22,722 nt of DNA from a virus, in IMG/VR virus record IMGVR_UViG_3300005432_000331, positions 1-22,722 of that record; one strand, given 5' to 3'. Under the pieces are notes generated by a model. It ran no database searches. It was not told the origin of the DNA and worked only from the letters and a program-made list of their open reading frames with translations. Position numbers and translations under genes: made by a program. Shown here in pieces: positions 3,858-22,569 of the stretch. Position 1 is the first letter of the stretch, and each line of letters starts with the position of its first letter.

Positions 3858-3933
3858 GCCGCTTTAGCTCAGCCGGTAGAGCAACTGATTTGTAATCAGT
3901 AGGTCCGCGGTTCGAATCCGTGAAGCGGCACCA
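3858..3933 (+). tRNA. tRNA-Thr (anticodon UGU)
   Basis: A full 76-base cloverleaf is present: acceptor GCCGCTT/AAGCGGC, D arm with AGCTCAGCCGGTAGAGC, anticodon stem ACTGA/TCAGT around loop TTTGTAA (anticodon TGT), T arm with GGTTCGAATCC, discriminator A and an encoded CCA. It reads ACA and other Thr NNA-type codons, which are frequent in this AT-rich DNA. It is the first of three tRNAs. Confidence 0.95.
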
Positions 3934-4010
3934 AAAAACTGTCACATGCAAGACCAATGACTTTTTTGGTAATAAAGGCGAACTTGGTGCTTTTGGTATC
4001 ACAGGTTCAC

Positions 4011-4086
4011 GGGGGATTAGCTCATCTGGGAGAGCGCCTGATTTGCATTCAGGAGGTGGCTGGTTCGAGTCCAGTATCCTCCACCA
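4011..4086 (+). tRNA. tRNA-Ala (anticodon UGC)
   Basis: Acceptor GGGGGAT pairs with ATCCTCC (one G-T wobble). The anticodon stem CCTGA/TCAGG encloses TTTGCAT with anticodon TGC. The T arm contains GGTTCGAGTCC, and the discriminator A is followed by an encoded CCA. A 77-base spacer separates it from tRNA-Thr; I see no further tRNA or gene in that spacer. Confidence 0.95.
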
Positions 4087-4089
4087 TAC

Positions 4090-4164
4090 GGTCCCTTCGT
4101 CTATCGGTTAGGACACATGGTTTTCATCCATGAAAGAGGAGTTCGATTCTCCTAGGGACCGCCA
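4090..4164 (+). tRNA. tRNA-Glu (anticodon UUC)
   Basis: Acceptor GGTCCCT pairs with AGGGACC. The anticodon stem CATGG/CCATG encloses TTTTCAT (anticodon TTC), and the T arm contains AGTTCGATTCT. The discriminator is G, typical for Glu, with CCA encoded. Only three bases separate it from tRNA-Ala, so the two are certainly cut from a common precursor. The G+C-richer island starts 23 bases downstream. Confidence 0.95.
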
Positions 4165-4187: not shown

Positions 4188-5297
4188 ATGAATTCAATAC
4201 ACACTGTCGAGCCTCATCCTTCTCCTAAACACAAAATGGGTTTCCTATTGGACTGGTTGCTTACATTGAAGTGCAACTATGATTGCACCTACTGTGGTCC
4301 GGGTGGTAACGGTTGGTTGCCTGGACACGACAACACTCAGGCACACCCAGACAAGGACGTGTGCGAAAAGATGCTGGAGCAAGGTCTCCGGTACGTTGAC
4401 ATGTACATGGAGATCAAGAGACCAAACATGCGATCAACATCTCTCAACATATATGGTGGAGAAGCAGTGTATCGAAAGGACATAGAATACCTATTGGAAA
4501 AGAGCAGTGAACTCTATGACGGTTACAAGGACAGTTGGTCTCTGAACAGGATGTTGACCTCCAATGCCTCTTGTAGCCTGGACAAATGGAAGAACGTGAC
4601 AGACCACGTGGAAACAATAACTTTCAGTTATCATTCAGAAGGTCCGGCCAAACTGCAAGATAATTTCATTACAAACTTGGAATACACACATGCCCAAAAG
4701 AAAAATTACAGTGCCATTGTGCTGATGTACCCAAAGCAGTGGGAAAGGTGCATGTACATGTTGGACTACATGCAAAGGAAAGGATACAATGTGAGACCAA
4801 AGATACTTGACGGCATCCAAGGTGTGTACACCAAAGAACAACTGAAACAGGTGTTTGACGTAATGAAAGAAAAAGATTACAGTCTACTGGAAAACATTGA
4901 GGGCAAGGAAGTGCTTACAAAATTCAGAGCATGTTGTGGAGGCAGACCTCTTTGCACGAATAGAAACTTCAAAGAACCAAAGAGTGTTGTGCCGCGGGAT
5001 AACTGGCTTGGATGGAAATGTTCTGCCAACCAATTCTTCTTGATGATGAACAGCCATGACAAAAATTTTTACACCAACAAGGACTGCCATGTGAGACACG
5101 ACGGAACAAGAGGACCGCTCGCAAACATAGACACCATGGATCAGTACATAGAGCAAACAAAAGAACAGTTGAAACAATCATCAAGCCACTTCCTGACCTG
5201 TGTGCAGAAGAGATGTGTGTGCGGAACTTGTGCACCTAAGTCTCTGACCAATCAAGGTCTCACAGATGTGATGAAGTCATATAATATATCAGTATGA
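4188..5297 (+). CDS. Radical SAM protein with C-terminal Cys cluster (369 aa)
   Basis: The N-terminal motif CNYDCTYCG (Cys29, 33, 36) is the CxxxCxxC site that binds the [4Fe-4S] cluster used to cleave S-adenosylmethionine. LNIYGGEAVYR near residue 90 corresponds to the GGEP-type SAM-contacting strand. The C-terminal third holds extra cysteines (CCGG...C near 247-255 and CVQKRCVCGTC near 346-356), suggesting one or two auxiliary clusters of SPASM/twitch type. Substrate unknown; such enzymes modify peptides, sugars or tRNA. No Shine-Dalgarno is visible before ATG 4188. The next gene overlaps by 4 bases (ATGA), so it is the first of a three-gene operon with the unknown 100-aa protein and the SGNH-like hydrolase. 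Its base composition is moderately richer in G+C than the bulk of the window. Confidence 0.85.
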   Translation: MNSIHTVEPHPSPKHKMGFLLDWLLTLKCNYDCTYCGPGGNGWLPGHDNTQAHPDKDVCEKMLEQGLRYVDMYMEIKRPNMRSTSLNIYGGEAVYRKDIEYLLEKSSELYDGYKDSWSLNRMLTSNASCSLDKWKNVTDHVETITFSYHSEGPAKLQDNFITNLEYTHAQKKNYSAIVLMYPKQWERCMYMLDYMQRKGYNVRPKILDGIQGVYTKEQLKQVFDVMKEKDYSLLENIEGKEVLTKFRACCGGRPLCTNRNFKEPKSVVPRDNWLGWKCSANQFFLMMNSHDKNFYTNKDCHVRHDGTRGPLANIDTMDQYIEQTKEQLKQSSSHFLTCVQKRCVCGTCAPKSLTNQGLTDVMKSYNISV

Positions 5298-6280: not shown

Positions 6281-7270
6281 CTATGTCAGCAACCAGGTGT
6301 TGCCGATGTCTGACCTACTGCACCTCTCCAGCATCTCCTTGAACGCGGGGTCATCCAATGGTGGCAGTTTGGACTTGAAGTCGGGCATGGTGCCCCAGTC
6401 CTCTATCAGTGAGAAGTTCACCCTGTCAGCGCCATAGCGTTCTCCCAATGACAGCATGTCATCCATCTCGTGATGGTTGTCCTTCTGCACCACGAAGTAC
6501 AGTATGAACTTGAAGCCGTGCTTCTGTTTGGCATCGGCTATGCTCTGCAGGTTCTCGTTGACCTTGTCCCAGCGTCCGCCCAGTCTCAGTTTCTCATAGG
6601 TCTCCCTGCTGGCGCCGTCTATGCTCACGCCCAGTTCGTTGAGGTTCCTCATCACGTATGGCACACGTGTGTGGAACTCGCGGAACATCAGTGCGTTGGT
6701 CAGTATCGAATATTTTATGTTGTCACGCTCGGGCGTCTGCTCCATGAAGTGCCTGTACACGTGCGATGCGAATGGGTCACCATCCGATCCTATGTGCACC
6801 TGTATGTCGTGGTCGTAGTCGTACAGCCATTCGTTGATCCTGTCCGCCAGCCTGATGCCCAGGTTGTACGCGGAACCCTCCTTGTGGAATATGAGGTTCT
6901 TCCTGCAACTGGGACACCTCAGATTGCAACTGTCGTCTATGGCCAACCTCAGGTGTCGGATGCCACCCGCGGGTCGATCGAACATGTTCTTCTTGATGTA
7001 GGTGCACTGATGGTTGTTGCAGTAACGGTACGTGCCGTCCGCGATGGAATCCTGTAGGTGTTTGTGCATGTCGGATCCCACGATCTCGGCCAGGCTCTTG
7101 ACCTGTAGGTTGCCAATGCTCTGTGGTAGCCACGCTGTGCATTCACAGGCGTAGCACGAACCCTGCTTGTCTATCAGCACAGTGTCGTAGGGCCTCGCAC
7201 ACCTGCTGGTAATCTTTAGGTCCTTGTTGGTGTCAATGCCGTAGTGTTCGAACAATCGCTTGTTTATCAT
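6281..7270 (-). CDS. Radical SAM protein with N-terminal SPASM-like domain (329 aa)
   Basis: The core motif CNLRCPSC (Cys115, 119, 122) is preceded, not followed, by a Cys-rich module that looks like a SPASM region: CYACECTAW (39-47), GNLQVKSLAEIV (53-64) and later CNNHQC (84-89). The core continues with a D/G-rich strand (VHIGSDGDPF), SILTNALMF, and VSIDGASRETYEK, the standard radical SAM barrel strands. So the domain order is the reverse of most SPASM enzymes. Coding DNA is near 57% G+C in the two 60-base stretches I counted, far above the rest of the window, which points to recent acquisition. The start overlaps the stop of the 57-aa gene (ATGA). Substrate unknown; peptide modification is typical for SPASM proteins. 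Confidence 0.85.
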   Translation of the reverse strand: MINKRLFEHYGIDTNKDLKITSRCARPYDTVLIDKQGSCYACECTAWLPQSIGNLQVKSLAEIVGSDMHKHLQDSIADGTYRYCNNHQCTYIKKNMFDRPAGGIRHLRLAIDDSCNLRCPSCRKNLIFHKEGSAYNLGIRLADRINEWLYDYDHDIQVHIGSDGDPFASHVYRHFMEQTPERDNIKYSILTNALMFREFHTRVPYVMRNLNELGVSIDGASRETYEKLRLGGRWDKVNENLQSIADAKQKHGFKFILYFVVQKDNHHEMDDMLSLGERYGADRVNFSLIEDWGTMPDFKSKLPPLDDPAFKEMLERCSRSDIGNTWLLT

Positions 7271-8948: not shown

Positions 8949-9742
8949 TGCCAATCCTTTTCAGTAGTTATTGTTCCCACTTTTGGTTTGGAATAAATCA
9001 AGTTACCGTCAGCGTCCCAGGTATGCCATTTTTGTTTACTCCCCCAAAGATGATTATGCCAATTGGGTAGGATGTTTTTCATAACACTTTCAATGTTTTG
9101 TGATACTTCATTCCAATTTTTCTGTAAACATATCCATTTCAAGTTGTATATGTCAACAAAACTGAGATTGTCTATGCAGGCATCGTGCCAGTCTTGCTCA
9201 CATTCTATTTGCTTATTAACCGTCGAAAGGAAATTCATTGCTAGACTTGTGATTCCAGTCTTGGTAGGATACCATGTATCGATGTTCCAACATTTTTTAA
9301 TGAACTGTAAGTCGCCATACATAAACAGGTCACCTATTTGTGGTCTGTCTATTGCGGTCTGCTGGGTAACTAGCAATTTTTTATTCCCTAACAGTTTGTT
9401 ACAGTAAGCGTCGATATTTTCTATTAGATGTATCGAATCTGCCCTCGTCTTTAAAATTTTCTCAAAGCCTCTAGATTCCGCATGGTCATAGGCTATATTG
9501 CAAAGTCTCGGATGTCCAACGTTGATATCTTTGGCATTTATCTGATCTTCCCAATGTATGAAATCACAAACTCCGTTATCAATATTCGGTTTCAATCCAT
9601 GTCCTGCTAATATAATGTAGGAGTTAGGATTGTTCTGCCTGGCATGTCTGGCCGCAAATTCTATAGGTTCCAATTTATATTTTTGGTCCTGCTCTACGTA
9701 GGCGTGTGTTAAAATAATACAATCAGTCAAACTTATCTCCAA
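8945..9742 (-). CDS. Putative WavE-like glycan biosynthesis protein (about 265 aa)
   Basis: The protein begins with a hydrophobic strand (CIILTHAYVEQDQ) and has YIILAGHG around residue 43. FEKILKTRADSIHLIENID (93-111) contains the same 'hxxRxD' element as the downstream gene. Next comes TQQTAIDRPQIGDLFMYGD, which resembles the RID...DxxxxG part of WavE-like proteins, and then a Trp-rich C-terminus. A role in LPS or capsule sugar addition is inferred from this and from the cassette. The start is uncertain: ATG at 9742 lies inside a GGAGAT sequence, which would instead be a ribosome-binding site for TTG at 9730. The gene overlaps the sulfotransferase end by 8-20 bases. Confidence 0.5.
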   Translation of the reverse strand: MEISLTDCIILTHAYVEQDQKYKLEPIEFAARHARQNNPNSYIILAGHGLKPNIDNGVCDFIHWEDQINAKDINVGHPRLCNIAYDHAESRGFEKILKTRADSIHLIENIDAYCNKLLGNKKLLVTQQTAIDRPQIGDLFMYGDLQFIKKCWNIDTWYPTKTGITSLAMNFLSTVNKQIECEQDWHDACIDNLSFVDIYNLKWICLQKNWNEVSQNIESVMKNILPNWHNHLWGSKQKWHTWDADGNLIYSKPKVGTITTEKDWQ

Positions 9743-10355
9743 ATAAATTTATGTCTTCTATAAATGCGTCAGCCACTGCTTGTATCATTTTTTCATTAGT
9801 ATAATATTTTTTGTAATTTTTTTCTCGTGGTGCTCTTCGTAATTTTTTTGTAGTTGAAAACTTTTCCGATGATAAGTTTATTTTTTCAAAACAAAACTTA
9901 ATATCATTTTCAAAGTTATCATACAAACAAATTTTATCAACCGCCTGTTTGCCGTCGATGTGTGTATACTCCACTGTCGGTTTGAAGTTTTTATGTTGCC
10001 TCCACTTGCTGTTTGCAAACTCTATCACAAAAGTTTCAAAATTTTTATAGTCTAACAGTTCTTTGGACCATGTGAGATGAAGTTGGTCTGTTGTATAATC
10101 ATGCCAGAACGAGACCATACGATCCCATGGATTCCTATGAAAGGCAAATTTAAAATATGATTGACTGTTTGTAATATTGTATTTTTCTAATATTTCATAA
10201 ATGCTCGAATGATAATCTCCGACTAGCCATTTACATTTCTTTGTGGCTAGTTCAGGAATCACGTGTTCACTACGCATAAAGTTTTGTATCGTGGTTGTGC
10301 CGGTTTTAGGCACCGCAACAAAAATGTATTGCGGATCTGAGTTATGAATGATCAT
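9723..10355 (-). CDS. Sulfotransferase (about 210 aa)
   Basis: The PAPS-binding loop is clear (IFVAVPKTGTTTIQNF, residues 11-26 from the chosen start), as is the 3'-phosphate-binding segment (FHRNPWDRMVSFW, 72-84). The end (AFIEDINLFGDKF) is typical of carbohydrate sulfotransferases. It should transfer sulfate from PAPS to a hydroxyl of a sugar, probably the glycan built by this cassette; the host must supply PAPS. The start at 10355, one base after the upstream stop, puts the PAPS loop at the usual distance from the N-terminus. ATG at 10400 would add 15 residues and overlap the upstream gene by 44 bases. The coding DNA is AT-rich, near 25% G+C in one counted line. Confidence 0.85.
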   Translation of the reverse strand: MIIHNSDPQYIFVAVPKTGTTTIQNFMRSEHVIPELATKKCKWLVGDYHSSIYEILEKYNITNSQSYFKFAFHRNPWDRMVSFWHDYTTDQLHLTWSKELLDYKNFETFVIEFANSKWRQHKNFKPTVEYTHIDGKQAVDKICLYDNFENDIKFCFEKINLSSEKFSTTKKLRRAPREKNYKKYYTNEKMIQAVADAFIEDINLFGDKFD

Positions 10356-10356
10356 A

Positions 10357-11517
10357 TTATAAAAGTTTTTGTAGTCTTGTAAAATGTCTACCGCCATCAA
10401 ATGATGTGTTCAACATTGTTTCAATTATTCTTTGCAGTTGTGCCTTGTCTACATATTTCGATGGTATAGAAAAATGGTTTGCACAGTTGTGTTTAATGGC
10501 ATGTTGTGCCATGTACTCATCAAAACAAAGTGCCGATATAACACCCTTTACTTTGTTTGCTGTAATATTTGCTCCCTGTCCTGATCTACAAAAACTTATC
10601 CCATGACTACATTCGTTATCCTGTATCAGTTTTGTAACCTGTAAAACATAGTCTGGATAATCACACGCCTTGTTTGTAAAAGTTCCAACATCTATGTAAG
10701 GTAAGGCCATTGTATCCAAAATATCTTTACATTGTTTTTTTATATCAAAACCAGAATGATCACTGGCAAGTGCAATTGGTTTATCACCAAATCTCGTGAT
10801 TACTTTTTTTACAAAAAATTCAAAATGATTCGGAGTGCCCAAAACGTGCATTTTTTCTGTATTGGCGGCTGTTACCTTTAATCCATCTCTAATCATCAAA
10901 TTGTACATAGGTGCGATATAAAATTCATTTTTTACAAGTATATTGTTTTCAATCATCTCGTCAGCATATTTTAGAAACATTTTTCCTGATTTGAAATGAT
11001 ACAATCCCACGTTTGCTTCTTTTGATATGACTTCCTTTTCTACAACATTTGTCACTATTCCGTCCTCACCATACTCAGAATAACTGTGGTCTGGACTGTT
11101 TGCTGTAAAAGTCAAAAGGAAACCATCACTGTCCTGTTGTATAGAGTCTGGATTGAAAGTTGGACCAAAATGAACATCTGGTGTATAAATTATTAATGGC
11201 AGGTCGTTATCTACATGTTCCCTGGCCAATGTACAAGTTTCTAAAGCACCCCTTGTAACCTTATTAACTTTAACAATTTTGATATCATCTCCGAACTTTT
11301 GTTTTAGAATTTTATCAATACTAAAATTATAGATGTGATCAACACGTACCATAAAAATCAAATTACAATCTTTTATATCTACAGATTCGAGAGCCCAATC
11401 TATCACGTGTTTATTTCTTGCCAGTATAAGTGGCTTCGGCATCGTATATCCTGCGTCAATGAAACGTTGAGCCTTACCGGCAATTGGTAATAAAAGATTA
11501 TATTTTTTCATTTGCAT
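10357..11517 (-). CDS. Fusion of sugar nucleotidyltransferase and RpiB-type sugar-phosphate isomerase (386 aa)
   Basis: Residues 4-240 form a nucleotidyltransferase: LLLPIAGKAQRF...GYTMPKPLI is the NTP-binding signature, TRGALET contacts the base, and YTPD (Asp114) should bind metal. Residues 246-386 are an RpiB/LacAB-type isomerase: IALASDHSGF, DYPDY, the catalytic-Cys loop GISFCRSGQG (Cys310), ANKVKG, the His-Asn pair at 343-344 and FDGGRHFTR at the end. In typical RpiB the loop reads CGTGIG, so the Gly-to-Arg change may alter substrate. The fusion would isomerise a sugar phosphate and later activate the product as an NDP-sugar. It overlaps the PfkB gene upstream by 20 bases (14 if Met3 is the start). 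No Shine-Dalgarno site is visible, so coupling is likely. Confidence 0.85.
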   Translation of the reverse strand: MQMKKYNLLLPIAGKAQRFIDAGYTMPKPLILARNKHVIDWALESVDIKDCNLIFMVRVDHIYNFSIDKILKQKFGDDIKIVKVNKVTRGALETCTLAREHVDNDLPLIIYTPDVHFGPTFNPDSIQQDSDGFLLTFTANSPDHSYSEYGEDGIVTNVVEKEVISKEANVGLYHFKSGKMFLKYADEMIENNILVKNEFYIAPMYNLMIRDGLKVTAANTEKMHVLGTPNHFEFFVKKVITRFGDKPIALASDHSGFDIKKQCKDILDTMALPYIDVGTFTNKACDYPDYVLQVTKLIQDNECSHGISFCRSGQGANITANKVKGVISALCFDEYMAQHAIKHNCANHFSIPSKYVDKAQLQRIIETMLNTSFDGGRHFTRLQKLL

Positions 11518-12175
11518 TTTTAATTAGTTTACTTGTAGTTTCGTGTGCGTATTTTTGTGTCTGATCTATTGGTAGGCCAAGATGAATTCCATATAAGAAA
11601 CTACTTGCGAACATGTCGCCCGCACCCAGAACATTGCTTTTTGAAATAAACATGTTATCTTCGATATTGAATTTTGTCTCATATCTTCCATCAGATACCA
11701 CACTGCTTTTATTGGTATGTAATATTACATATCCTTTGGTGTCCTTACACATGGTTGTAAGGTCTGCGTAAGCATCTTCATCTGCAATAAAAAAATAATC
11801 TAGATGTTGTAATAAGGAACTGTCTACCCTAGGACCTGCACAGACATCTGCAGATACAATACCTTTTAGATCTTTAAGCCAACTGATATCTTGTAATTTA
11901 TTAATGTACATGGCATGGGATATCTTGGATTCTTTTATTATTGGTGTTTGGGTTTTTAGATCTGGCACAAAGTTAGAATATCTAGTGCTGGAATCTCTGT
12001 CAATGTAAACTATGGCTTCACCTATTGATGTTGGACACATTCCGATATCTATATCACTACCAATAAGTTTGAATGTTCTCCACATGTTTGCCATAGCACC
12101 CAAGGTTTGTCTTTCTTCGAATCCGTCAAAAATTCTGTCAACGGTCATGTGCCCATATAAAGTTATATCATGCAT
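11498..12175 (-). CDS. PfkB-family sugar kinase, short form (225 aa)
   Basis: The N-terminus ITLYGHMTVDRI matches the first strand and the 'GxxxxD' substrate site of ribokinase/PfkB proteins. TLGAMANMWRTFKLIG corresponds to the GGxxxNxAxxLxxLG region. NVLGAGDMFASSFLYG (182-197) carries the anion-hole GAGD and the catalytic Asp187. At 225 residues it is about 70-80 shorter than usual, mainly in the middle lid and strand region. It should phosphorylate a sugar or sugar phosphate, which fits between the isomerase and phosphatase genes of this cassette. The start overlaps the stop of the KdsC-like gene (TAATG) and its end overlaps the fusion gene. Confidence 0.8.
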   Translation of the reverse strand: MHDITLYGHMTVDRIFDGFEERQTLGAMANMWRTFKLIGSDIDIGMCPTSIGEAIVYIDRDSSTRYSNFVPDLKTQTPIIKESKISHAMYINKLQDISWLKDLKGIVSADVCAGPRVDSSLLQHLDYFFIADEDAYADLTTMCKDTKGYVILHTNKSSVVSDGRYETKFNIEDNMFISKSNVLGAGDMFASSFLYGIHLGLPIDQTQKYAHETTSKLIKNANEKI

Positions 12176-12714
12176 TAAAATTTTTCCTTAATGTCAAGGT
12201 CATATACATTGTCTATATGTGCAGATAGTTTATATTTAGGTAGTAATTTTCTTTCTCTTAAAGTATCAAACAACGACATTACACAGTTATGGCCTCCCAC
12301 TTCAGGTAATATATCGTCTACTACTTCTTGAATTTCTTCAGGACAATCACACGGTGCATATTTGTATTTTACTTTTTCCATTATACCTATATCGAATATG
12401 TCGTCTCCTACAAATACTATTTCGTCTGTTGTTACTTTATATTTTTTACAAATTTCTTGAACATAATCACCCTTGTCACGATGTGTGCCATCTTTCCGGT
12501 TTATTATTATATCTATGTTCCTATTTTTTGCTATCTTCTCATTGAATGGATCGCCCGATAAGAATAAAACTTTTATACCCAGTGCTTTAAATCTTTTTAT
12601 TGCTGTCCAATCTTTGTCGCAAAAAGTTTTCATTACTACATCACCATCACGGTTGTAATATTTCTTGCCATCTGTTAACACGCCATCTACGTCTAGTATT
12701 AACAATTTAATCAT
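12175..12714 (-). CDS. KdsC-like HAD phosphatase (179 aa)
   Basis: All HAD motifs are visible: LDVDGVLTDG (nucleophile Asp8, acid/base Asp10), LSGD (Ser53), RDKGDYV (Lys81) and FVGDDIFD (Asp104-Asp105). The end has the KdsC/NeuA-type sequence ADxILPEVGGHN followed by a short helix. Length and order match cap-less tetrameric Kdo-8-phosphate phosphatases; related enzymes hydrolyse other sugar phosphates, so the exact substrate is open. The start at 12714 overlaps the upstream stop and has GGAG 8 bases away; the long N-terminal extension to 12810 reads through the GDPD gene in another frame and is rejected. It forms one operon with kinase and nucleotidyltransferase-isomerase. Confidence 0.85.
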   Translation of the reverse strand: MIKLLILDVDGVLTDGKKYYNRDGDVVMKTFCDKDWTAIKRFKALGIKVLFLSGDPFNEKIAKNRNIDIIINRKDGTHRDKGDYVQEICKKYKVTTDEIVFVGDDIFDIGIMEKVKYKYAPCDCPEEIQEVVDDILPEVGGHNCVMSLFDTLRERKLLPKYKLSAHIDNVYDLDIKEKF

Positions 12715-13870: not shown

Positions 13871-15562
13871 TTAGTTATTGATGAATTTTTCTAGCCTAAA
13901 TCCTTTAGAATCAAAACATTCAACGTAGTCTGAATTGTTAGAGTGCCGTATAGTTCCCTGTCCCCATACCACATCGTGATCACTGTATGCAAATGCTTTC
14001 TTTATGGTGACGTCTATGTATTGTCCATTACCAACTCCTAGTGTTAAGAACGTTACATATCTACCTTTGTCTCCACGGAACACTCTGCCGTTTGCTATCA
14101 TTCCTGCAAACTCTACCTTGTCAAGATAAAGTTCTTTCACGTACATACCTGGCATGAAGTTATCTTGACTCCACCAACCATATTTTCTATACTGGAATTC
14201 TGGTGTGTCCCACTTATCCGATTTGCTTGGTGTTACAACTTCTATACCCACACGCTTGGCTTCTGTTCTGTATACCCAGCGTTTGTATGAACCTTGGCAA
14301 TGTTTTAAACACGATTTCCAAAACTTTTCTGGGTTGTGTGCCTTCTGGTATGCAAGTGCCCATATCAGTCTACCTAAATTTACTGCGTGTGCTCTACACA
14401 AACCAAAACCAGATAATGATTGTAGCATGGTGATTATTTCATCTTTGCGTGGATGATTGCCAAGCCTTGAAATGAACTCCATAATCTTTTCTTCGTTCTT
14501 TTTGGCAAACGCTCTACGATACATGTCGGCTTCATACTTGTCTATGTCTAACACTTCTGATATCCTGTCTATGGCATCATCCTCATACACTATTGTGTCA
14601 CTTATACGTTCTTTGCTCCAATCATGGAACATGGTTGCTTTCTTACGTCCAGATATAGCAACAGGTCGTATCAGTGCTGTGCCAAAGACACAGTCACGTC
14701 TACCCTTTGGTTGTATCGCCCTGAACAATCTTCTCATGGCTGGACTCTCTGCCTGTGTCACTCCCAACACATCTCCTCTGCACAAAAGGTCCGAGGTAGC
14801 GGCATCTTCCTCCGGATAGTCTGTTAGTTTCATTGTTGGGTCTATCTCTATGAGTTGTGATAAACCACGATTGGCTAAAATGTCCACCTTGAGGTGTTCT
14901 AGGTCCTCCACTTCGTTTTTGTCTAGTAGTATTTGATTCTCCGCCGTGAACAGGCTTTTTGGTAGTTGTCTTTGAAACATTAGTATTCCTCCGCAGTGTT
15001 TTGATATGCATCTTTTCTTGCCTTTCAATTTGTTTTCGATCCTTTTGGCTTCTTTGGTATCGATGCCAAGAGAATCATATGTGAACCTGCGGGGTAGGTT
15101 ACCCTTTACACCCAAACGTTTGGCCGCCTCACGTCTTGCTGATTTATCTTGATAGAGCACGTAGTTAGATATCCTAGCACTGCGTCCGGGCCACTTCTTG
15201 AAGATCCTCTGCATGACCTCATCCTGTCTGTGATGGGGGAAATCTATGTCCACATCAGGTAGGTCGTCCCGGTTGGGATTGAGGAATCGTGCAACGGGTA
15301 TGTCCCACTCCACTGGGTCCACATCTGTTATGCCCAATAGGTAACAGACTAACGATGAACCAGCACTACCACGTGTCATGTGCGGTATGTCTCGGGTCAT
15401 TGCTATGATGTCACATATTTGTATGAAGTAGTCTACGAAACGTAGTCGAAGGATGATTTGAGTTTCCTCGGCGAGCCTTTGCGTGTATTTTTCTGTGCCT
15501 GGACATTGCCTAATGAATCTATCGTACAGCCTTGTTATGTCGTTTAGTTCTTTATCTTTCAT
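13871..15562 (-). CDS. Shortened DnaE-type DNA polymerase (PolIII alpha-like core, 563 aa)
   Basis: The protein keeps the catalytic core of family C polymerases. It has RGSAGSSLVCYLLGIT at 64-79 and LPDVDIDF at 101-108 (metal-binding Asp105 and Asp107). It then has LKVDIL with the third Asp at 227, GVTQAESPAMRRLF at 267-280 with RP at 299-300, and a LSGFGLCRAHA helix-hairpin-like segment near 383-392. It lacks the whole N-terminal PHP domain and most C-terminal domains of the ~1160-residue bacterial enzyme; residues 470-563 may be a reduced OB-like region. It is downstream of helicase and primase on the same strand, so it probably works at the phage fork or in repair. The 80-base gap to the helicase has no gene. 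Confidence 0.85.
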   Translation of the reverse strand: MKDKELNDITRLYDRFIRQCPGTEKYTQRLAEETQIILRLRFVDYFIQICDIIAMTRDIPHMTRGSAGSSLVCYLLGITDVDPVEWDIPVARFLNPNRDDLPDVDIDFPHHRQDEVMQRIFKKWPGRSARISNYVLYQDKSARREAAKRLGVKGNLPRRFTYDSLGIDTKEAKRIENKLKGKKRCISKHCGGILMFQRQLPKSLFTAENQILLDKNEVEDLEHLKVDILANRGLSQLIEIDPTMKLTDYPEEDAATSDLLCRGDVLGVTQAESPAMRRLFRAIQPKGRRDCVFGTALIRPVAISGRKKATMFHDWSKERISDTIVYEDDAIDRISEVLDIDKYEADMYRRAFAKKNEEKIMEFISRLGNHPRKDEIITMLQSLSGFGLCRAHAVNLGRLIWALAYQKAHNPEKFWKSCLKHCQGSYKRWVYRTEAKRVGIEVVTPSKSDKWDTPEFQYRKYGWWSQDNFMPGMYVKELYLDKVEFAGMIANGRVFRGDKGRYVTFLTLGVGNGQYIDVTIKKAFAYSDHDVVWGQGTIRHSNNSDYVECFDSKGFRLEKFINN

Positions 15563-15642: not shown

Positions 15643-17085
15643 TTATTGTTCTTCGTCTGAATGGAGTTCGTTTAGGAGTTGTCTTAGTTTTCCTCCCTCA
15701 ACAGTGGCTTTGACTTTGCCAATAGTATCTCCTTTACGAGGATCCGGAACATCGGTTCTGGCATCTTTGGGTGTGCCATCTGATGCTGACACTTTTGAAG
15801 TTTGTTTCAAAGAATCATATATTGTACTTCTCTGTTTGTCAAACTGTTTGTATTCCGGATCATCTGCTAGATCTCTTATTCTCAAACTGTCCACATCAAA
15901 CTCCAAGTCTACTTTTTGTCCAACACCAGAACTAGATCTGGTCTTCATGAACTGTATCTGATATCTGCCACGTTCCTTCATTGCCCTACTCGTGAATATA
16001 CCTATGACATTGTCAGCAGTTTGTATCTTAGATAGTCCACCTGATATGTGAGAGTGATCAAACTCTATCTCTTCTACAGATGCCCTGTTCAACTGTGATG
16101 CTGTTGCCAGTATACATTGTTTTTCCACAACCAAGTTTCTTAGTTCTTCTGACACATACTTGTCTTTGATGAATAAGTCTGCAGGAGAAATCCTTTTGCT
16201 TTTTGGCATCATTAAATCCAGATAGTCAATTAGTATGCAGTCTATTTTCTTTTTGTTTTTAAGTTCTAATTCTTTTAGATATGTCCGTATGTCCAAGACA
16301 GTGCTACCACTTGGTAGATATTTGATCTGCAAAGTTCCAGACTTCTTAGCCATCATCTTCACTTTCATCTCAACATTGTCTATCTCAGGAAAAACTTTAC
16401 GTGTTGGAATGTTAGTCATCATGGCATCTAATCTCATGGCAGTGAGTTGCTCACTCAATTCAAAAGATATGTAACAAACGTTCAGACCAGCAGTGGCCCA
16501 GTTAACCGCAAGATTCTGTAAGAACAAACTCTTACCTGCGCCTGATCCACCTGCAAAGATGTTTAGTTCTCCACGGTTGAAACCGCCAAACAGTTTCTTG
16601 TCTAAGTTAGCCCAGCCTGTGCTGATCTGTCCGTTGTTCGCCTTGAGTGCCTCTAGTCTTCCCTTTGGATCCTCAAAGTAGTCTGTACCAAGATCACGTG
16701 TCAGTCCTACATTGACTGCGTCCTTGACCATGTCCTCAACAGGTGCATAGTCTCCCTTCTCCAGCAAGTCTGCTGATTGAAGTATTGCATGTTCTAGTGC
16801 CTTGTGTCTTGAAAAAGTTTCAAATTCATCCAATAGCCAATTGAAGTGGCTTGGGTCTAAATCTTTTGCTGATTTTAATTTGATATCGTGTTTTGCATTC
16901 ACCTGTTCTACATCTGGCATAACTTTATACTCATCCATGTAGTCTTTTACAAATTTTGCAATTGGTTGTAGTTTACGATCAAAGGATTCAGGTTTGAATA
17001 TGTTCTGAGCTCTAGCAAATGATTCTGCATCTGCAAGAAGCATCTCTATGTATAGTTTCTGTACGTCAAAAGTATATTCAGCCAT
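15643..17085 (-). CDS. Replicative DNA helicase, T4 gp41/DnaB-like (480 aa)
   Basis: An N-terminal helical domain (1-130) is followed by a RecA-like motor with Walker A GGSGAGKS (179-186), H1a-type ISFELSEQ, Walker B KIDCILIDYLDLM (280-292), ASQLNR sensor-like sequence and an arginine-containing end (IQFMKTRSSS). This is the hexameric 5'-3' helicase of T4-like phages. The C-terminal ~70 residues are polar and low in order, ending HSDEEQ, possibly the primase or loader contact. The start overlaps the end of the upstream radical SAM gene by 8 bases. Orientation and order place it between primase (upstream) and DnaE-type polymerase (downstream), as part of the replication operon. Confidence 0.92.
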   Translation of the reverse strand: MAEYTFDVQKLYIEMLLADAESFARAQNIFKPESFDRKLQPIAKFVKDYMDEYKVMPDVEQVNAKHDIKLKSAKDLDPSHFNWLLDEFETFSRHKALEHAILQSADLLEKGDYAPVEDMVKDAVNVGLTRDLGTDYFEDPKGRLEALKANNGQISTGWANLDKKLFGGFNRGELNIFAGGSGAGKSLFLQNLAVNWATAGLNVCYISFELSEQLTAMRLDAMMTNIPTRKVFPEIDNVEMKVKMMAKKSGTLQIKYLPSGSTVLDIRTYLKELELKNKKKIDCILIDYLDLMMPKSKRISPADLFIKDKYVSEELRNLVVEKQCILATASQLNRASVEEIEFDHSHISGGLSKIQTADNVIGIFTSRAMKERGRYQIQFMKTRSSSGVGQKVDLEFDVDSLRIRDLADDPEYKQFDKQRSTIYDSLKQTSKVSASDGTPKDARTDVPDPRKGDTIGKVKATVEGGKLRQLLNELHSDEEQ

Positions 17086-17986
17086 TTTTTACTCCACATT
17101 GTATTTTACAACATTCATGAGCAGAAGTAAATTGTTTTGTTGTATCAAAGAACTCTTTTATTTCTTTGTTGTTTAATATATTTTCCAGTGTGTTGTTTTT
17201 TATGTTTAACTTATTTTTTCTTGGAGAAAAAACACTTTTATACTTGTATCTATAGGTGCCCATCCAACAACAAGGGTAGAAGTCCCCTTCGGCATCTATG
17301 TATAGTTGCCAACTTGGTAATTCATTTTTGATACACATTGGTTGCATTTTTGCTTGGTATTCCGGACTGATAAGAACTTGCTTTTGGTGTTTGTAATCAC
17401 TGTGGACATATTCACTGTCTGGCATTAGATCTTTGTTGCCCAGCCATCTATCACTGTGCTCAACAAGGAAGTCATTGAATCCAAGGTCTTTGCTCATTTG
17501 TTTTGCTTCATACATTTGATGTTGATTATGTTTGAAAACAATAAACTTCCATATTGTCTTGAACCTTCTGTCTCGCAAAGTGTTAATAGCAGTCATTATT
17601 GATTTCCATTTTGCATTTTTTCTATATAAATGATTTGTGTCTTCAAGGCCGTCTATTGCAAATGTTATGCAATCCTCCTCGCCTAGTATTTCTTTTAATT
17701 TGTTCCACCATGTTTTGGTTTTTGATGATCCATTTGTGTGAATGTGTAGTTTACAGTTATTGTCTTTTAATCTTTTACAAAGTTGTAGAAATTTTGAATG
17801 GTATATTGGATCGCCGTTGTTGCCACACATTTTAACCTCAGCGTTTGTTCCAACAAATTTTGCCACGTGATCAATATTAATCTCGTGTAGATTTCTTTTT
17901 TTGAATTTTTCATAGAACCACGTTCTATCGCACAATGGACATTCCAATGTACATTTACTTGTTGGTTCGATGTGAAAACTAACCAT
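17078..17986 (-). CDS. Radical SAM/SPASM protein inside the replication operon (302 aa)
   Basis: CTLECPLC (Cys12, 16, 19) starts the radical SAM core right at the N-terminus. MCGNNGDPIYH corresponds to the GGEP-like strand, IHTNGS and FAIDGLED to later barrel strands. The C-terminal region has LYIDAEGDFYPCCWMG and a final CCKIQCG, the expected SPASM-type auxiliary cluster ligands. Function unknown; SPASM enzymes usually modify peptides. It overlaps the primase end and the helicase start by 8 bases each, so it must be co-expressed with the replisome. No substrate-like small ORF lies directly beside it. G+C is as low as in the replication genes, so it has been here longer than the 6281-7270 enzyme. 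Confidence 0.85.
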   Translation of the reverse strand: MVSFHIEPTSKCTLECPLCDRTWFYEKFKKRNLHEINIDHVAKFVGTNAEVKMCGNNGDPIYHSKFLQLCKRLKDNNCKLHIHTNGSSKTKTWWNKLKEILGEEDCITFAIDGLEDTNHLYRKNAKWKSIMTAINTLRDRRFKTIWKFIVFKHNQHQMYEAKQMSKDLGFNDFLVEHSDRWLGNKDLMPDSEYVHSDYKHQKQVLISPEYQAKMQPMCIKNELPSWQLYIDAEGDFYPCCWMGTYRYKYKSVFSPRKNKLNIKNNTLENILNNKEIKEFFDTTKQFTSAHECCKIQCGVKNG

Positions 17987-18992
17987 ACATTTTCCTTTTC
18001 AAGTCTATCTTGAACTTGTTTGATTCTGTTGTTTTTAATATTGTTTGTATTGTAAACAATCTTCCATACTTCATAACTGCGTCGGCAATATCATTTATAT
18101 TGTCTTCCCATTCTGGAAAAGCAACACTCCATCCAAATTCTATTGCTTGATTAATAAGTTTTTCGCCTGGAGCATCTCTATCTGGTACAACAATAACTTT
18201 TTTGCCCAATCCATTTATAAGTTCTCTTTGTATATCATTTATCTCCGATCCAAGGATACTCACACCAGAAATGGTAATTGCATCGAATGGACCTTCTGTA
18301 ACTATTACAAATTTCCTCGTCCAGTCCTGTGCATCCATATTGAACACATATCCTGGTTGCACATCTGTGTAGTATTTCACCTTGTCAGACTGTTCAAAAA
18401 TTCTACCTGTGAATCCTACTATGTCTCCACGCCAATAAAACGGAATCAATAATCTTTTATCAATGTCCCAGTGTTTGTCAGACGAGTACATGAAGTCATA
18501 CCAGTCTGCTCCTATACCCCTTCCTGCTAGATAGTTTAATAGATTATCAATTTTATTTTGTTGTTCTGTTGGCATCGTTCCCACTGTATATTCTTCTAGC
18601 CATTCACCTAGTGATCTTGTATGCTTTGGCAATTCTCTTTTCTTGAATGTAACAAATTTTTTCTTTTCAAATTTTACATCACCCTCTTCTTCTCGCATGG
18701 CTTCGATAGCCAGTTTACGTATGGTATCATCGGGAATGCCAATATATCCCATAAACTGTCTCATCTTATATGTAAGTTTTCTACCTATCACATAACTTGC
18801 CTTGAACCCACAGTTGAAACAATGATAACTTACTGTGCCATCCGCACTTGTCATTATACCACCACGTTTTTTCTTGTCTGCCGTTTCGCCATTATGTACA
18901 CAACAGGGTGCATTGAAAGATGTCCAGCCACTGGGTGTTTTTTTCCTACCCGCAGGCAGGCTCGTCAGAATAGTAGATTGGATCAGGTTCAT
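17979..18992 (-). CDS. DNA primase, DnaG/T4 gp61-like (337 aa)
   Basis: The N-terminal zinc-binding region uses CCVH (Cys30/31, His33) and CFNC (Cys58, Cys61). The TOPRIM core shows VIVTEGPFDAIT (Glu233) and VIVVPDRDAPG (Asp271, Asp273), the metal-binding residues for primer synthesis. Length agrees with phage gp61-like primases. The C-terminus (residues 310-337) is basic and probably contacts the helicase. Translation continues into the radical SAM gene, which overlaps its last 8 bases. Primer synthesis for lagging-strand replication together with the gp41-like helicase is established for the family. Confidence 0.88.
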   Translation of the reverse strand: MNLIQSTILTSLPAGRKKTPSGWTSFNAPCCVHNGETADKKKRGGIMTSADGTVSYHCFNCGFKASYVIGRKLTYKMRQFMGYIGIPDDTIRKLAIEAMREEEGDVKFEKKKFVTFKKRELPKHTRSLGEWLEEYTVGTMPTEQQNKIDNLLNYLAGRGIGADWYDFMYSSDKHWDIDKRLLIPFYWRGDIVGFTGRIFEQSDKVKYYTDVQPGYVFNMDAQDWTRKFVIVTEGPFDAITISGVSILGSEINDIQRELINGLGKKVIVVPDRDAPGEKLINQAIEFGWSVAFPEWEDNINDIADAVMKYGRLFTIQTILKTTESNKFKIDLKRKMYG

Positions 18993-19814: not shown

Positions 19815-20189
19815 ATGAACGAAATTTTTAACACATTAAGGGATAAATTCCCTTTTTTATCCCTGATTCGTAAGGGCGAGTTGGAATACGTTGGTATTGT
19901 ACAAAATGAGGATAACAACGTAATCAGTTTTTATGATTATGGCAGGCTCATGTTACCAGCAGACAAGATGAGATTTCTTAAATGTGGAGAGACTTGGTGG
20001 CACGAGTCCAACAGGAAGTTACCAATCAATATTTTCCTAAAGGGTGATTTCAGATATTTCCGTACCACACTGGTTACTCTCAATTCTAAAGACATAGAAA
20101 TTGTTCACGGCCCAACCGTCAAACTGTCTGAAATTTCAAAGAAACGGGTGAAGAGACGGACTATCCAATTAGTTAGGAGACCTACCTAG
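19815..20189 (+). CDS. Conserved-looking unknown phage protein (124 aa)
   Basis: The 124-residue basic protein has a beta-rich middle (YVGIVQNEDNNVISFYDYGRL) and a Trp-rich stretch (GETWWHESNRKLPINIFLKG). It continues FRYFRTTLVTLNSKDIEIVHGP and ends in an Arg/Lys cluster (KKRVKRRTIQLVRRP). The compact layout and clean ending suggest a real, folded small protein; the basic end may bind nucleic acid. It is alone on the plus strand, divergent from the structural gene and converging with the 52-aa gene, whose stop overlaps by 8 bases. No clear Shine-Dalgarno site is visible. I do not recognise its family. Confidence 0.65.
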   Translation: MNEIFNTLRDKFPFLSLIRKGELEYVGIVQNEDNNVISFYDYGRLMLPADKMRFLKCGETWWHESNRKLPINIFLKGDFRYFRTTLVTLNSKDIEIVHGPTVKLSEISKKRVKRRTIQLVRRPT

Positions 20190-20351: not shown

Positions 20352-21074
20352 TTATGATGTTTCATCTGTTTTACCCTTGTAGTATCCTTTATCGGACCAC
20401 TTCTCATTCTTCCTGAATAACGGTATAGGAATTGTGAGGTTTTTGATGAACTGTGCTCTCATGGTTTCTATGTAATCCATATTGTGTATCTTTAGATCTA
20501 GCCATTTGCAAAGCCTAATAATTTCCGCAGAAAATTTTTGTCCTTCCCAAAAAGAAGAAGCATCAAACATAAAAGGATTGTCAGACTGCAATAATCTTTC
20601 CTCATATCCCGTATAAAATTTTTCTGCTCCCTTGGTCCTAATATCCAATATTTTTTTATCATTTACCATCATCACATGCTTTGCATTTGTAAAGTGAGAA
20701 ATATTTTTCCTATACTCGTTGTAATGGGCAATAAGAAAAAACTTGAAGCGTGTTTGGTTTGTAAGGTCAATAAAGAATTGATTGGTCTTATTTTTTTGTT
20801 TTTCAAAGTCGTCTTGTGATGAAAATCCATATACAACATTTCCGTGATCAAATTCTATATGACTTTGGTGCTTATCAGACAAACGCAATAGACTCATACT
20901 TGCTTTGAAACTTTGTTCTTCTGTCCAATCGTTTTGAAATTTATTTTTAGCATACACTTCTAATGGATGTAGGCAGTTGGTATCCAAGGCTAAACAACTT
21001 TGTAAAAATTTACCACCTGCTCCGGGGTTGAATGCAATTATTATTAAATTTTCGGTGTCCGTATTGAATGACAT
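20352..21074 (-). CDS. P-loop-like protein, possibly sulfotransferase-related (240 aa)
   Basis: NLIIIAFNPGAGGKFLQSCLAL (9-30) has a strand followed by a Gly-rich loop (NPGAGGKF) that could bind phosphate, reminiscent of P-loop or sulfotransferase-type nucleotide binding. VVYGFSSQDDFEKQ, KFFLIAHYN and KHVMMVNDKKIL look like later strands of an alpha/beta fold, and FSAEIIRLCKWLDLKI resembles the C-terminal helix of sulfotransferases. Proof of a PAPS 3'-phosphate site is missing. It lies just downstream of the mini-DnaE gene (7 bases), on the same strand. Family assignment is weak; the protein itself is clearly real. Confidence 0.5.
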   Translation of the reverse strand: MSFNTDTENLIIIAFNPGAGGKFLQSCLALDTNCLHPLEVYAKNKFQNDWTEEQSFKASMSLLRLSDKHQSHIEFDHGNVVYGFSSQDDFEKQKNKTNQFFIDLTNQTRFKFFLIAHYNEYRKNISHFTNAKHVMMVNDKKILDIRTKGAEKFYTGYEERLLQSDNPFMFDASSFWEGQKFSAEIIRLCKWLDLKIHNMDYIETMRAQFIKNLTIPIPLFRKNEKWSDKGYYKGKTDETS

Positions 21075-21081
21075 AAAAACA

Positions 21082-21654
21082 TTATACGCTAAAAGTTTTA
21101 CGTTTTATTAAATTCATTTGTACAACAATAGCCTGTGCGTATGCAACTGCGTGAGACTTCTTGAAGAAATAACTGCCATCGGATGGTTTGATCCATACAT
21201 CTTTCATGATGTCTACCCATTGCTTGTCAACAAGATATCTTTTTGCAGGCCTTATTATTGCAAGTACAGCCGCTAGTTGTTCAATACTTTTTGGTTGAAG
21301 TTTTGATACAATATTGAAATGACCGTTAAGATGAAATAGATCATCAACAGTTTTTTGATCTTTCAGCATGTCCCAATCTGGTTCCTGTATCATCAGTTCA
21401 ACTAGTTCCTGCTCTGATTTGACTTCTTTGTATATGTTTACATTTAAACAATCGATTTTAAAGTATCCTCTGTCCTCTGCCTGTTTGTAATCAAGCGATG
21501 AGTGTCCTGTCACAGGATGTTCCGGAACAGCATGAAAGTACACGCCTGTCTTGTGCTTCTCAGTTTTGTCCTCTTTGATTATCGATGCAGGAGTGTGCCT
21601 AAATAATTTTAGCACTCCGTCTCTGTCATAAAAATCTATATCTACATCAGGCAT
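21082..21654 (-). CDS. Mini-DnaE: reduced PolIII alpha-like protein (190 aa)
   Basis: The ATG at 21654 overlaps the upstream stop (TAATG), and the protein starts directly at the catalytic motif MPDVDIDF (Asp5, Asp7). YFKIDCLN (64-71) provides the third Asp68. LFHLNGHFNIVSKLQPKS (106-123) and IEQLAAVLAIIRPAK (124-138) correspond to the FQxES and PxxxxDLxAxxALxRPGP regions of DnaE, and FFKKSHAVAYAQAI (163-176) to the FNKSHAxxYA helix. So the catalytic triad and the end of the fingers survive, while PHP, most fingers and the C-terminal half are gone. In the FQxES motif Q, E and S are replaced by H, N and G. It may be a polymerase remnant, regulator or small nucleotidyltransferase. Confidence 0.75.
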   Translation of the reverse strand: MPDVDIDFYDRDGVLKLFRHTPASIIKEDKTEKHKTGVYFHAVPEHPVTGHSSLDYKQAEDRGYFKIDCLNVNIYKEVKSEQELVELMIQEPDWDMLKDQKTVDDLFHLNGHFNIVSKLQPKSIEQLAAVLAIIRPAKRYLVDKQWVDIMKDVWIKPSDGSYFFKKSHAVAYAQAIVVQMNLIKRKTFSV

Positions 21655-21887
21655 TAGTGTACACTTCCTTTTTGGTTTTTATTGTGTTCAATTAATTTGT
21701 CACGTGATCCTGGTTGTAACACTTCTAACACGTCAAGTAATTTTCTATATCCCTCTGTTTTCAATATTGCCTGATTCATTTGCGGCATTATCACTCGTCC
21801 TATCGAGCCATCTGGTTTTATTATTACTGCACAATCTCCCTCGTCAAATTCTAGATTATCTGATATCTCTAAATCTATCTTAGACAA
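21654..21887 (-). CDS. Unknown small protein (77 aa), TTG start
   Basis: No ATG fits; TTG at 21887 has GGGAGG seven bases upstream, so it is taken as the start, overlapping the zinc-finger gene by 8 bases. The product begins with an acidic segment (LEISDNLEFDEGDCA), then a hairpin-like VIIKPDGSIGRVIMP, and an alpha-helical half (AILKTEGYRKLLDVLEVLQPGSRDKLIEH). The stop overlaps the mini-DnaE start. The 'IIKPDGSIG' strand and its steady place between the zinc-finger and mini-DnaE genes suggest a partner in replication or transcription control. No family recognised. Confidence 0.65.
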   Translation of the reverse strand: MSKIDLEISDNLEFDEGDCAVIIKPDGSIGRVIMPQMNQAILKTEGYRKLLDVLEVLQPGSRDKLIEHNKNQKGSVH

Positions 21888-22569
21888 TTTTGGCCTCCCT
21901 TGCTGTGTCCTGTACTAGCATATGGTCAGCAGGATAACTCTTTAGTTTGCTTGGCCAAAAACTTGGGTTTATAAATCTTTCTATCATTTGTAATTGTTCG
22001 TCATTAAATGATTTTAACATCCTTTTGCCTGCGTTGCAACCTAACAACAGCCACGGACTTATCTTACCTTGCTGGATGTGTTGCACTGCTCTGTTTGTGT
22101 TGACCAATCGAAAGTAATCACTCCATTGTGCATTTTGTTCTTGTGCCCAATCCATCATGGTTGTAATACTTCTTTGTAGTGCGGCTTCCACTGGTTCTGT
22201 TTTAATTGCTTCTATCAAATATGTTTCGTACAAATCATCTCTTGCCCAGTGATCTAATTTTATTTTAGATTTCAAAACAAAGTCTATGTACTTCTCTGGA
22301 TACAATGGATTAATATGCATAATAAATCTACCGAATTTTACAAACGCATTGTAGTAAGGACTTTTAACAAATTCATCATATGTTTTTATTTTTGAATTTT
22401 TTTGGTGTATTTGATAGAAACGTTGGAATACCATAAACGCATTAACTACCCATTTCTCATCTTTTTGTAGATATCTTCTTTTTGGTTCACACATATGAAC
22501 TTGTAAAGTTCTTTCTCTTGTAAATTCTTTACCGCAATAAGGACATTTATATTTTTTTGTCGATGCCAT
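21880..22569 (-). CDS. Zinc-finger protein with unknown helical C-terminus (229 aa)
   Basis: Residues 8-28 form a single C2H2/C2HC-type finger: CPYC (Cys9, Cys12), 12 residues, then His25 and Cys27. The remaining ~200 residues are mostly helical, rich in aromatic and charged residues (AFMVFQRFYQIHQ, KFGRFIMHINPLYPEK, TTMMDWAQEQNAQWSDYF), with no enzyme motif seen. It should bind DNA or RNA through the finger; the C-terminal part probably contacts proteins. The start overlaps the preceding gene by 23 bases and its stop overlaps the TTG-started gene, so it is part of the run leading into mini-DnaE. Real gene, function unknown. Confidence 0.7.
   Translation of the reverse strand: MASTKKYKCPYCGKEFTRERTLQVHMCEPKRRYLQKDEKWVVNAFMVFQRFYQIHQKNSKIKTYDEFVKSPYYNAFVKFGRFIMHINPLYPEKYIDFVLKSKIKLDHWARDDLYETYLIEAIKTEPVEAALQRSITTMMDWAQEQNAQWSDYFRLVNTNRAVQHIQQGKISPWLLLGCNAGKRMLKSFNDEQLQMIERFINPSFWPSKLKSYPADHMLVQDTAREAKIV

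Follow-up and report, generated by a model that had tools for sequence, protein, structure and literature searches.

The open reading frame at 21082-21654 of the analysed viral DNA (the window, a single stretch of 22,722 nucleotides) most probably encodes the C-terminal half of a two-chain minimal PolIII alpha, a form of the polymerase that occurs in RaK2-like jumbo phages and their marine relatives. This half, referred to as the C-unit, is a real gene and belongs to a kind already described, split PolIII; a new minimal polymerase that works alone is not supported. Iyer et al. (2021) reported jumbo phages with a minimal PolIII alpha that is split into two distantly encoded proteins, and described phages with the split form as having none of the other PolIII domains (PMC7824862). 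In view of that account, the protein named in the preliminary description of this DNA does not represent a new protein family. The C half of the ‘group 2.2’ jumbo phages has the same length, motifs and neighbourhood as that of the window, and a separate N half is likewise present in relatives of the window. The two protein families concerned, PHROG 11778 and PHROG 11127, are equated with the split PolIII of Iyer et al. by description, phage group and sequences rather than by the accessions in the figures of that paper. A PolIII alpha-like gene was also noted in the paper on phage Atu_ph07. No biochemistry on the halves of split PolIII was found in the open-access literature.

Sequence, structure and conservation of the C-unit

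The C-unit and the features that define it are as follows.

21082-21654, minus strand: C-unit, probable C-terminal half of a split minimal PolIII alpha, 190 aa (PHROG 11778, 63 phage records, AlphaFold2, Foldseek)
21631-21651, minus strand: PDVDIDF with the first two catalytic aspartates, Asp5 and Asp7 (Asp invariant in 209/209 homologues; DnaE1 alignment)
21451-21459, minus strand: KID (Lys66-x-Asp68), third catalytic aspartate and the preceding lysine (invariant in 209/209)
21241-21252, minus strand: RPAK (135-138), fingers segment (Arg135, Pro136 and Lys138 invariant in 209/209)
21136-21162, minus strand: KKSHAVAYA helix (165-173), fingers (His168 and Tyr172 invariant in 209/209)
21652-21656, minus strand: TAATG, in which the stop codon of the 77-aa ORF overlaps the start codon of the C-unit (sequence)
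21654-21887, minus strand: 77-aa ORF upstream of the C-unit, without a family match (PHROG and Pfam comparison)

The preliminary description had set out a 190-residue protein that opens with MPDVDIDF, keeps the KxD, RPAK and KSHAxAYA motifs in the order of PolIII alpha, and starts at a TAATG overlap; the sequence bears out the coordinates, the start and the order of the motifs. The absence of the other PolIII domains, also claimed there, holds for a chain of 190 aa in which Pfam gives a sub-threshold match to the fingers and nothing else, with neither a PHP domain nor a C-terminal HhH/OB/clamp-binding region. PHROG 11778 (‘DNA polymerase’, 197 positions) matches residues 3-187 over profile positions 8-195 with an E-value of 1.8e-65.

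In a collinear profile alignment with DnaE1 of M. tuberculosis, residues 1-13, 54-137 and 160-175 of the C-unit correspond to residues 413-425, 567-663 and 773-788, respectively, and the PDVDIDF strand is equivalent to MPDIDIDF at 413-420. The DxD strand and the KxD region are separated by 141 residues in DnaE, a part that includes the thumb, versus 40 residues in the C-unit; a later fingers segment comprises 109 residues in DnaE versus 22. Bacterial DnaE proteins (E. coli 2HNH, Taq 2HPI, M. tuberculosis 5LEW) share with the C-unit the collinear DxD, KxD, RP and KSHA motifs and the fold. In contrast to these proteins of ~1,160 aa, the C-unit has a shortened thumb segment, lacks the PHP domain and the HhH/OB/clamp-binding tail, and does not contain the GS motif in its chain; the motif is carried by a separate protein, the N-unit, in relatives.

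The AlphaFold2 model of the C-unit (pLDDT 91.8, alignment of 40 sequences) has strands at residues 4-8, 21-27, 30-39 and 67-71, after which the fingers are formed by helices. The twelve best Foldseek matches are bacterial DNA polymerases, the first ten of them PolIII alpha, and the best PDB matches are PolIII alpha of M. tuberculosis, Taq and E. coli with probabilities of up to 1.00 and TM-scores of 0.3-0.44. TM-scores are modest overall (0.3-0.5), and with this qualification the predicted structure agrees with the proposed relationship to DnaE, including that of E. coli.

A tblastn search of 50,697 phage records located the C-unit in 63, in every case with a match over 80% of the query or more. 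Nearly all are jumbo phages, of the RaK2, 121Q/PBECO4, GAP32/CBB, PA5oct/Paride, XacN1, SCTP-2 and Atu_ph07/Phosso types; two 141-kb Alishewanella phages have it as well. In IMG/VR, 557 relatives were identified among 596 candidate stretches of viral contigs. A pattern scan of bacterial and archaeal genome assemblies gave two C-units among the matches listed, both in archaeal MAGs, which are probably mis-binned phage contigs.

Conservation was assessed in 209 homologues, 76 of which are less than 80% identical to each other, and which extend down to ~36% identity. Asp3, Asp5, Asp7, His34, Gly37, Pro44, Lys66, Asp68, Trp94, Pro121, Arg135, Pro136, Lys138, His168 and Tyr172 are invariant in all of them, so that the three aspartates named in the preliminary description are kept throughout the homologues. 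Three additional C-units from near-complete contigs also keep the motifs. Compared with 80 close relatives, the C-unit has a median dN of 0.086 and a pS of 0.76, the synonymous sites being near saturation; 19 pairs with unsaturated dS give a dN/dS of ~0.04. Together with the PHROG 11778 match and the 557 viral relatives, these values lie well outside what chance would give. The C-unit is under purifying selection.

This record bears on the question of whether the ORF could be a broken fragment, a pseudogene or a spurious reading frame. The protein is far shorter than any cellular PolIII alpha, and the genome paper of phage CBB calls its 172-aa PolIII alpha-like protein ‘truncated’ (PMC5259590). 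Against this stand a frame that stays open and hardly varies in length across more than 200 homologues, the low dN/dS and conserved synteny, which refute a fragment or pseudogene and leave such an origin with a negligible probability. The earlier statement that the protein is not a broken fragment is accordingly upheld: it is an intact, conserved derivative of PolIII alpha. An N-terminal part encoded in frame upstream was looked for in relatives, and none is encoded. The open frame in the window amounts to 198 aa in total and, in a near-identical contig, just eight in-frame codons (KPKRKCTL) precede the ATG, which leaves no room for such a part; the short lead and the frames of relatives together rule out an in-frame extension. 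None of the 209 homologues is a fused N+C chain, the listed open frames being shorter than 230 aa.

The separate N-terminal half

The N-unit is a protein of ~171 aa (PHROG 11127) with a GRGS motif. Each of the nine complete relatives searched with PHROG 11127 has a single copy, encoded on its own at a distance of ~15 to 224 kb from the C-unit. Its model (pLDDT 91.3) also has PolIII alpha as the best PDB match, and its consensus C-terminus reads ..WGVGRGSSVASYVLYLIGVHKINSIxYxLDIxEFLK. On the solved structures, the N-unit profile ends at residue 392 of E. coli DnaE, 454 of Taq and 406 of M. tuberculosis, and the C-unit profile starts at Taq 461 and M. tuberculosis 413; the E. coli counterpart of this start is the MPDFDVDF strand near residue 397. 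Since the N-unit ends just before the point in DnaE where the C-unit begins, the two chains are complementary almost to the residue. The start codon of the C-unit corresponds to the internal methionine of the MPDFDVDF-type motif of DnaE.

The two halves also occur together. All 60 phage records with an N-unit have a C-unit, and the three C-unit records without an N-unit match in that collection are the Alishewanella phage Slicko01, its sister Slickus01, and an unverified 109-kb fragment; the N-unit of Slicko01 was recovered by profile. Many long IMG/VR contigs have both halves, always apart, and other contigs, which are incomplete, have one only. GRGS is present in 155 of 155 N-units compared, a count that is not an independent test because the extraction itself required the motif; it is also retained in the nine complete relatives, whose N-units were identified by profile. 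The N-unit is part of a conserved gene block other than that of the C-unit, in which a clamp-loader subunit and ‘NARGD’, GroES-like and MazG-like proteins, named by reading their sequences, are encoded as well. We also note that a 117.7-kb contig (3300032288_004815) has two N-unit copies in opposite orientation, ~70 kb apart, which reflects either a long inverted repeat or an assembly artefact.

The separate N-unit weighs heavily on the idea that the C-unit alone is a 190-aa minimal family-C nucleotidyltransferase. With all three aspartates in one chain and a fixed start, the C-unit would appear to qualify; nevertheless, its chain is without the helix bearing the GS motif, which serves family-C enzymes in handling the incoming triphosphate, and the GS segment is a separate protein in every complete relative tested. 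An enzyme of one chain is hence very improbable. Of the minimal family-C enzyme put forward in the preliminary description, the derivation from PolIII alpha is genuine, and the self-sufficiency is not retained, the GRGS palm being a separate ~171-aa protein in relatives.

Gene neighbourhood and the single-chain polymerase core

The following genes of the window surround the C-unit or belong to the same replication neighbourhood.

21880-22569, minus strand: C2H2 zinc-finger protein, PHROG 11058, next to the C-unit in the shared gene order of marine relatives (PHROG/Pfam, synteny)
19815-20189, plus strand: opposite-strand ORF of ~124 aa, directly downstream of the C-unit in most relatives (synteny, annotated counterparts)
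17979-18992, minus strand: primase, PHROG 47, in the cluster of the C-unit, with the same gene order in most relatives (profile match)
15643-17085, minus strand: DnaB-like replicative helicase, PHROG 19, also in the cluster of the C-unit, 61-79% identical across marine relatives (profile match)
13871-15562, minus strand: separate PolIII alpha core of 563 aa, PHP-less and in a single chain, which has RGSAG, PDVDIDF and KVD motifs of its own (PF07733 1e-43, PF17657 8.4e-14)

RaK2-like phages and the marine relatives have a common order of zinc-finger protein, C-unit, opposite-strand ORF, structural protein, primase and DnaB-like helicase. In the window, an inserted ORF without an assigned family (20352-21074, minus strand) separates the C-unit from the opposite-strand ORF that normally adjoins it. 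Long contigs with an N-unit encode an ORF of ~890 aa with SLYPS and YGDTDS, a family-B polymerase by motif search only; these motifs come from the long contigs of relatives, the window being a 22.7-kb fragment.

Several other genes of the window deserve mention. A weak nucleotidyltransferase-like domain fused to a LacAB/RpiB-type isomerase (10357-11517, minus strand) adjoins a HAD phosphatase (12175-12711), and together they have the appearance of a phage pathway for an activated sugar. Radical SAM/SPASM proteins, two of them assigned by Pfam and a possible third recognised by eye, with no Pfam match, are encoded at 6281-7270 (minus strand), 17078-17986 (minus strand) and 4188-5297 (plus strand), a high number for a 22-kb phage stretch; one of them is situated between the primase and the helicase. 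A Sulfotransfer_2 protein by Pfam (9723-10400, minus strand) and a cluster of three tRNAs, Thr(TGT), Ala(TGC) and Glu(TTC), at 3858-4164 (plus strand) are also present.

The 563-aa polymerase is located downstream of the helicase and is 84-100% identical in many marine contigs. It matches residues 332-461 and 606-838 of DnaE1, and RGSAG, PDVDIDF and KVD are invariant within its family. Profile comparison aligns His34, Lys66, Asp68 and Arg135-Pro136 of the C-unit with His189, Lys225, Asp227 and Arg299-Pro300 of the 563-aa protein, so that KID coincides with KVD at 225-227, and the end of the N-unit aligns to its residue 97, just before PDVDIDF. Single-chain DnaE-like polymerases of phages (such as those of Streptomyces and Gordonia phages and the 563-aa protein of the window) have the family-C core in common with the C-unit; unlike the C-unit, they hold the GS motif, palm and fingers in one chain. 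The lineage of the window differs from the ‘group 2.2’ phages, as these are described by Iyer et al., in that it also encodes this single-chain core (PMC7824862).

The distribution of the two systems raises the possibility that the partner of the C-unit in the marine lineage, or the protein under its control, is the 563-aa core instead of an N-unit. Contigs selected for the 563-aa polymerase have a C-unit nearby in 22 of 22 cases and an N-unit in none, and 79 N-unit contigs are without a 563-type polymerase, the weak matches on them being the N-units themselves. The N-unit was not found on the window or on contigs of its close clade, which do not cover its expected location; genes of the N-unit block are missing from 563-positive contigs, except for one ferredoxin-like gene and a handful of matches that are weak or distant, and no N-unit contig overlaps any contig of the window clade at high DNA identity. 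Because the 563-positive contigs do not include the neighbourhood of the N-unit, its absence from them is uninformative. Moreover, most phages with a C-unit have no 563-type polymerase, the 563-aa protein has a full motif set of its own, and two near-complete contigs (328 and 320 kb) carry an N-unit, a C-unit and a 563-type polymerase of 59-63% identity. A pairing with the 563-aa core is therefore quite improbable. The suggestion from contig exclusivity that the single-chain polymerase has replaced the N-unit likewise fails as a general rule on these two contigs of ~320 kb. The megaphage sequence LR756508.1 (484 kb) has a 563-type gene of 39% identity and neither split half, which together with the ~320-kb contigs indicates that the split enzyme and the single-chain enzyme may be present side by side or one without the other. 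Measured against the description of the split form by Iyer et al., their coexistence is apparently unreported (PMC7824862). The first part of one N-unit contig (G098) shares 73-77% identity with DNA that, in other contigs, directly precedes the 563-type gene; the gene itself was not found on that contig despite the matching flank, an apparent empty site for the single-chain polymerase.

Proposed two-chain enzyme and its significance

The observations comprise homology to PolIII alpha, complementarity and co-occurrence of the halves, invariant catalytic residues and purifying selection; we infer that the halves associate physically, act as a polymerase and have the biological role described below. 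The C-unit would supply the Asp5/Asp7 dyad, Asp68 with Lys66, and the part of the fingers that contacts nucleotide and template (Arg135-Pro136, Lys138, His168 and Tyr172), and the N-unit would supply the N-terminal palm with the triphosphate-binding GRGS motif. The associated chains may then form one Pol-beta-type site for metal-dependent nucleotidyl transfer, devoid of PHP, thumb, OB domain and clamp-binding tail. Such an enzyme should be weakly processive because it lacks the thumb and the clamp-binding tail, and its polymerase activity is not assured, since loss of the thumb should weaken DNA binding. Split PolIII would probably be a short-patch or auxiliary polymerase beside the family-B replicase of the phage, and its probable tasks, close to the primase and helicase, are gap filling, repair or primer hand-off.

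The missing domains can also be taken as a sign that the C-unit is a non-polymerising accessory or regulatory subunit, whose fold is kept for binding DNA, nucleotides or a partner. It has no PHP, thumb or most of the DNA-binding domains, it adjoins the primase and helicase, and synthesis could be left to a family-B polymerase and, in the lineage of the window, to the entire PolIII core in one chain. Inactive polymerase paralogues, however, usually lose exactly the catalytic residues, and here the catalytic positions are all invariant in 209 homologues down to ~36% identity and GRGS is kept in the partner. An accessory function is for this reason considered unlikely, and half of a two-chain PolIII alpha is the preferred identity of the C-unit.

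Whatever its role, it concerns an abundant phage group, as marine viral contigs frequently carry the gene (557 places). There is about an even chance that two chains of ~170-190 aa with one active site and no thumb or PHP represent the smallest PolIII known, and that the abundant marine phage lineage, with a family-B replicase and a single-chain PolIII core besides, possesses three polymerases with divided labour. The single-chain core beside the split PolIII qualifies the 2021 statement, as worded for the phages treated there, that no other PolIII domains are present (PMC7824862). Should the two halves prove to be an active enzyme, they would represent a naturally bipartite family-C polymerase reduced to its nucleotidyl-transfer core. 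Such an enzyme would help to reveal the contributions of the thumb, the PHP domain and the clamp-binding parts, and would be relevant to the view that ancestral polymerase modules are preserved in phages.
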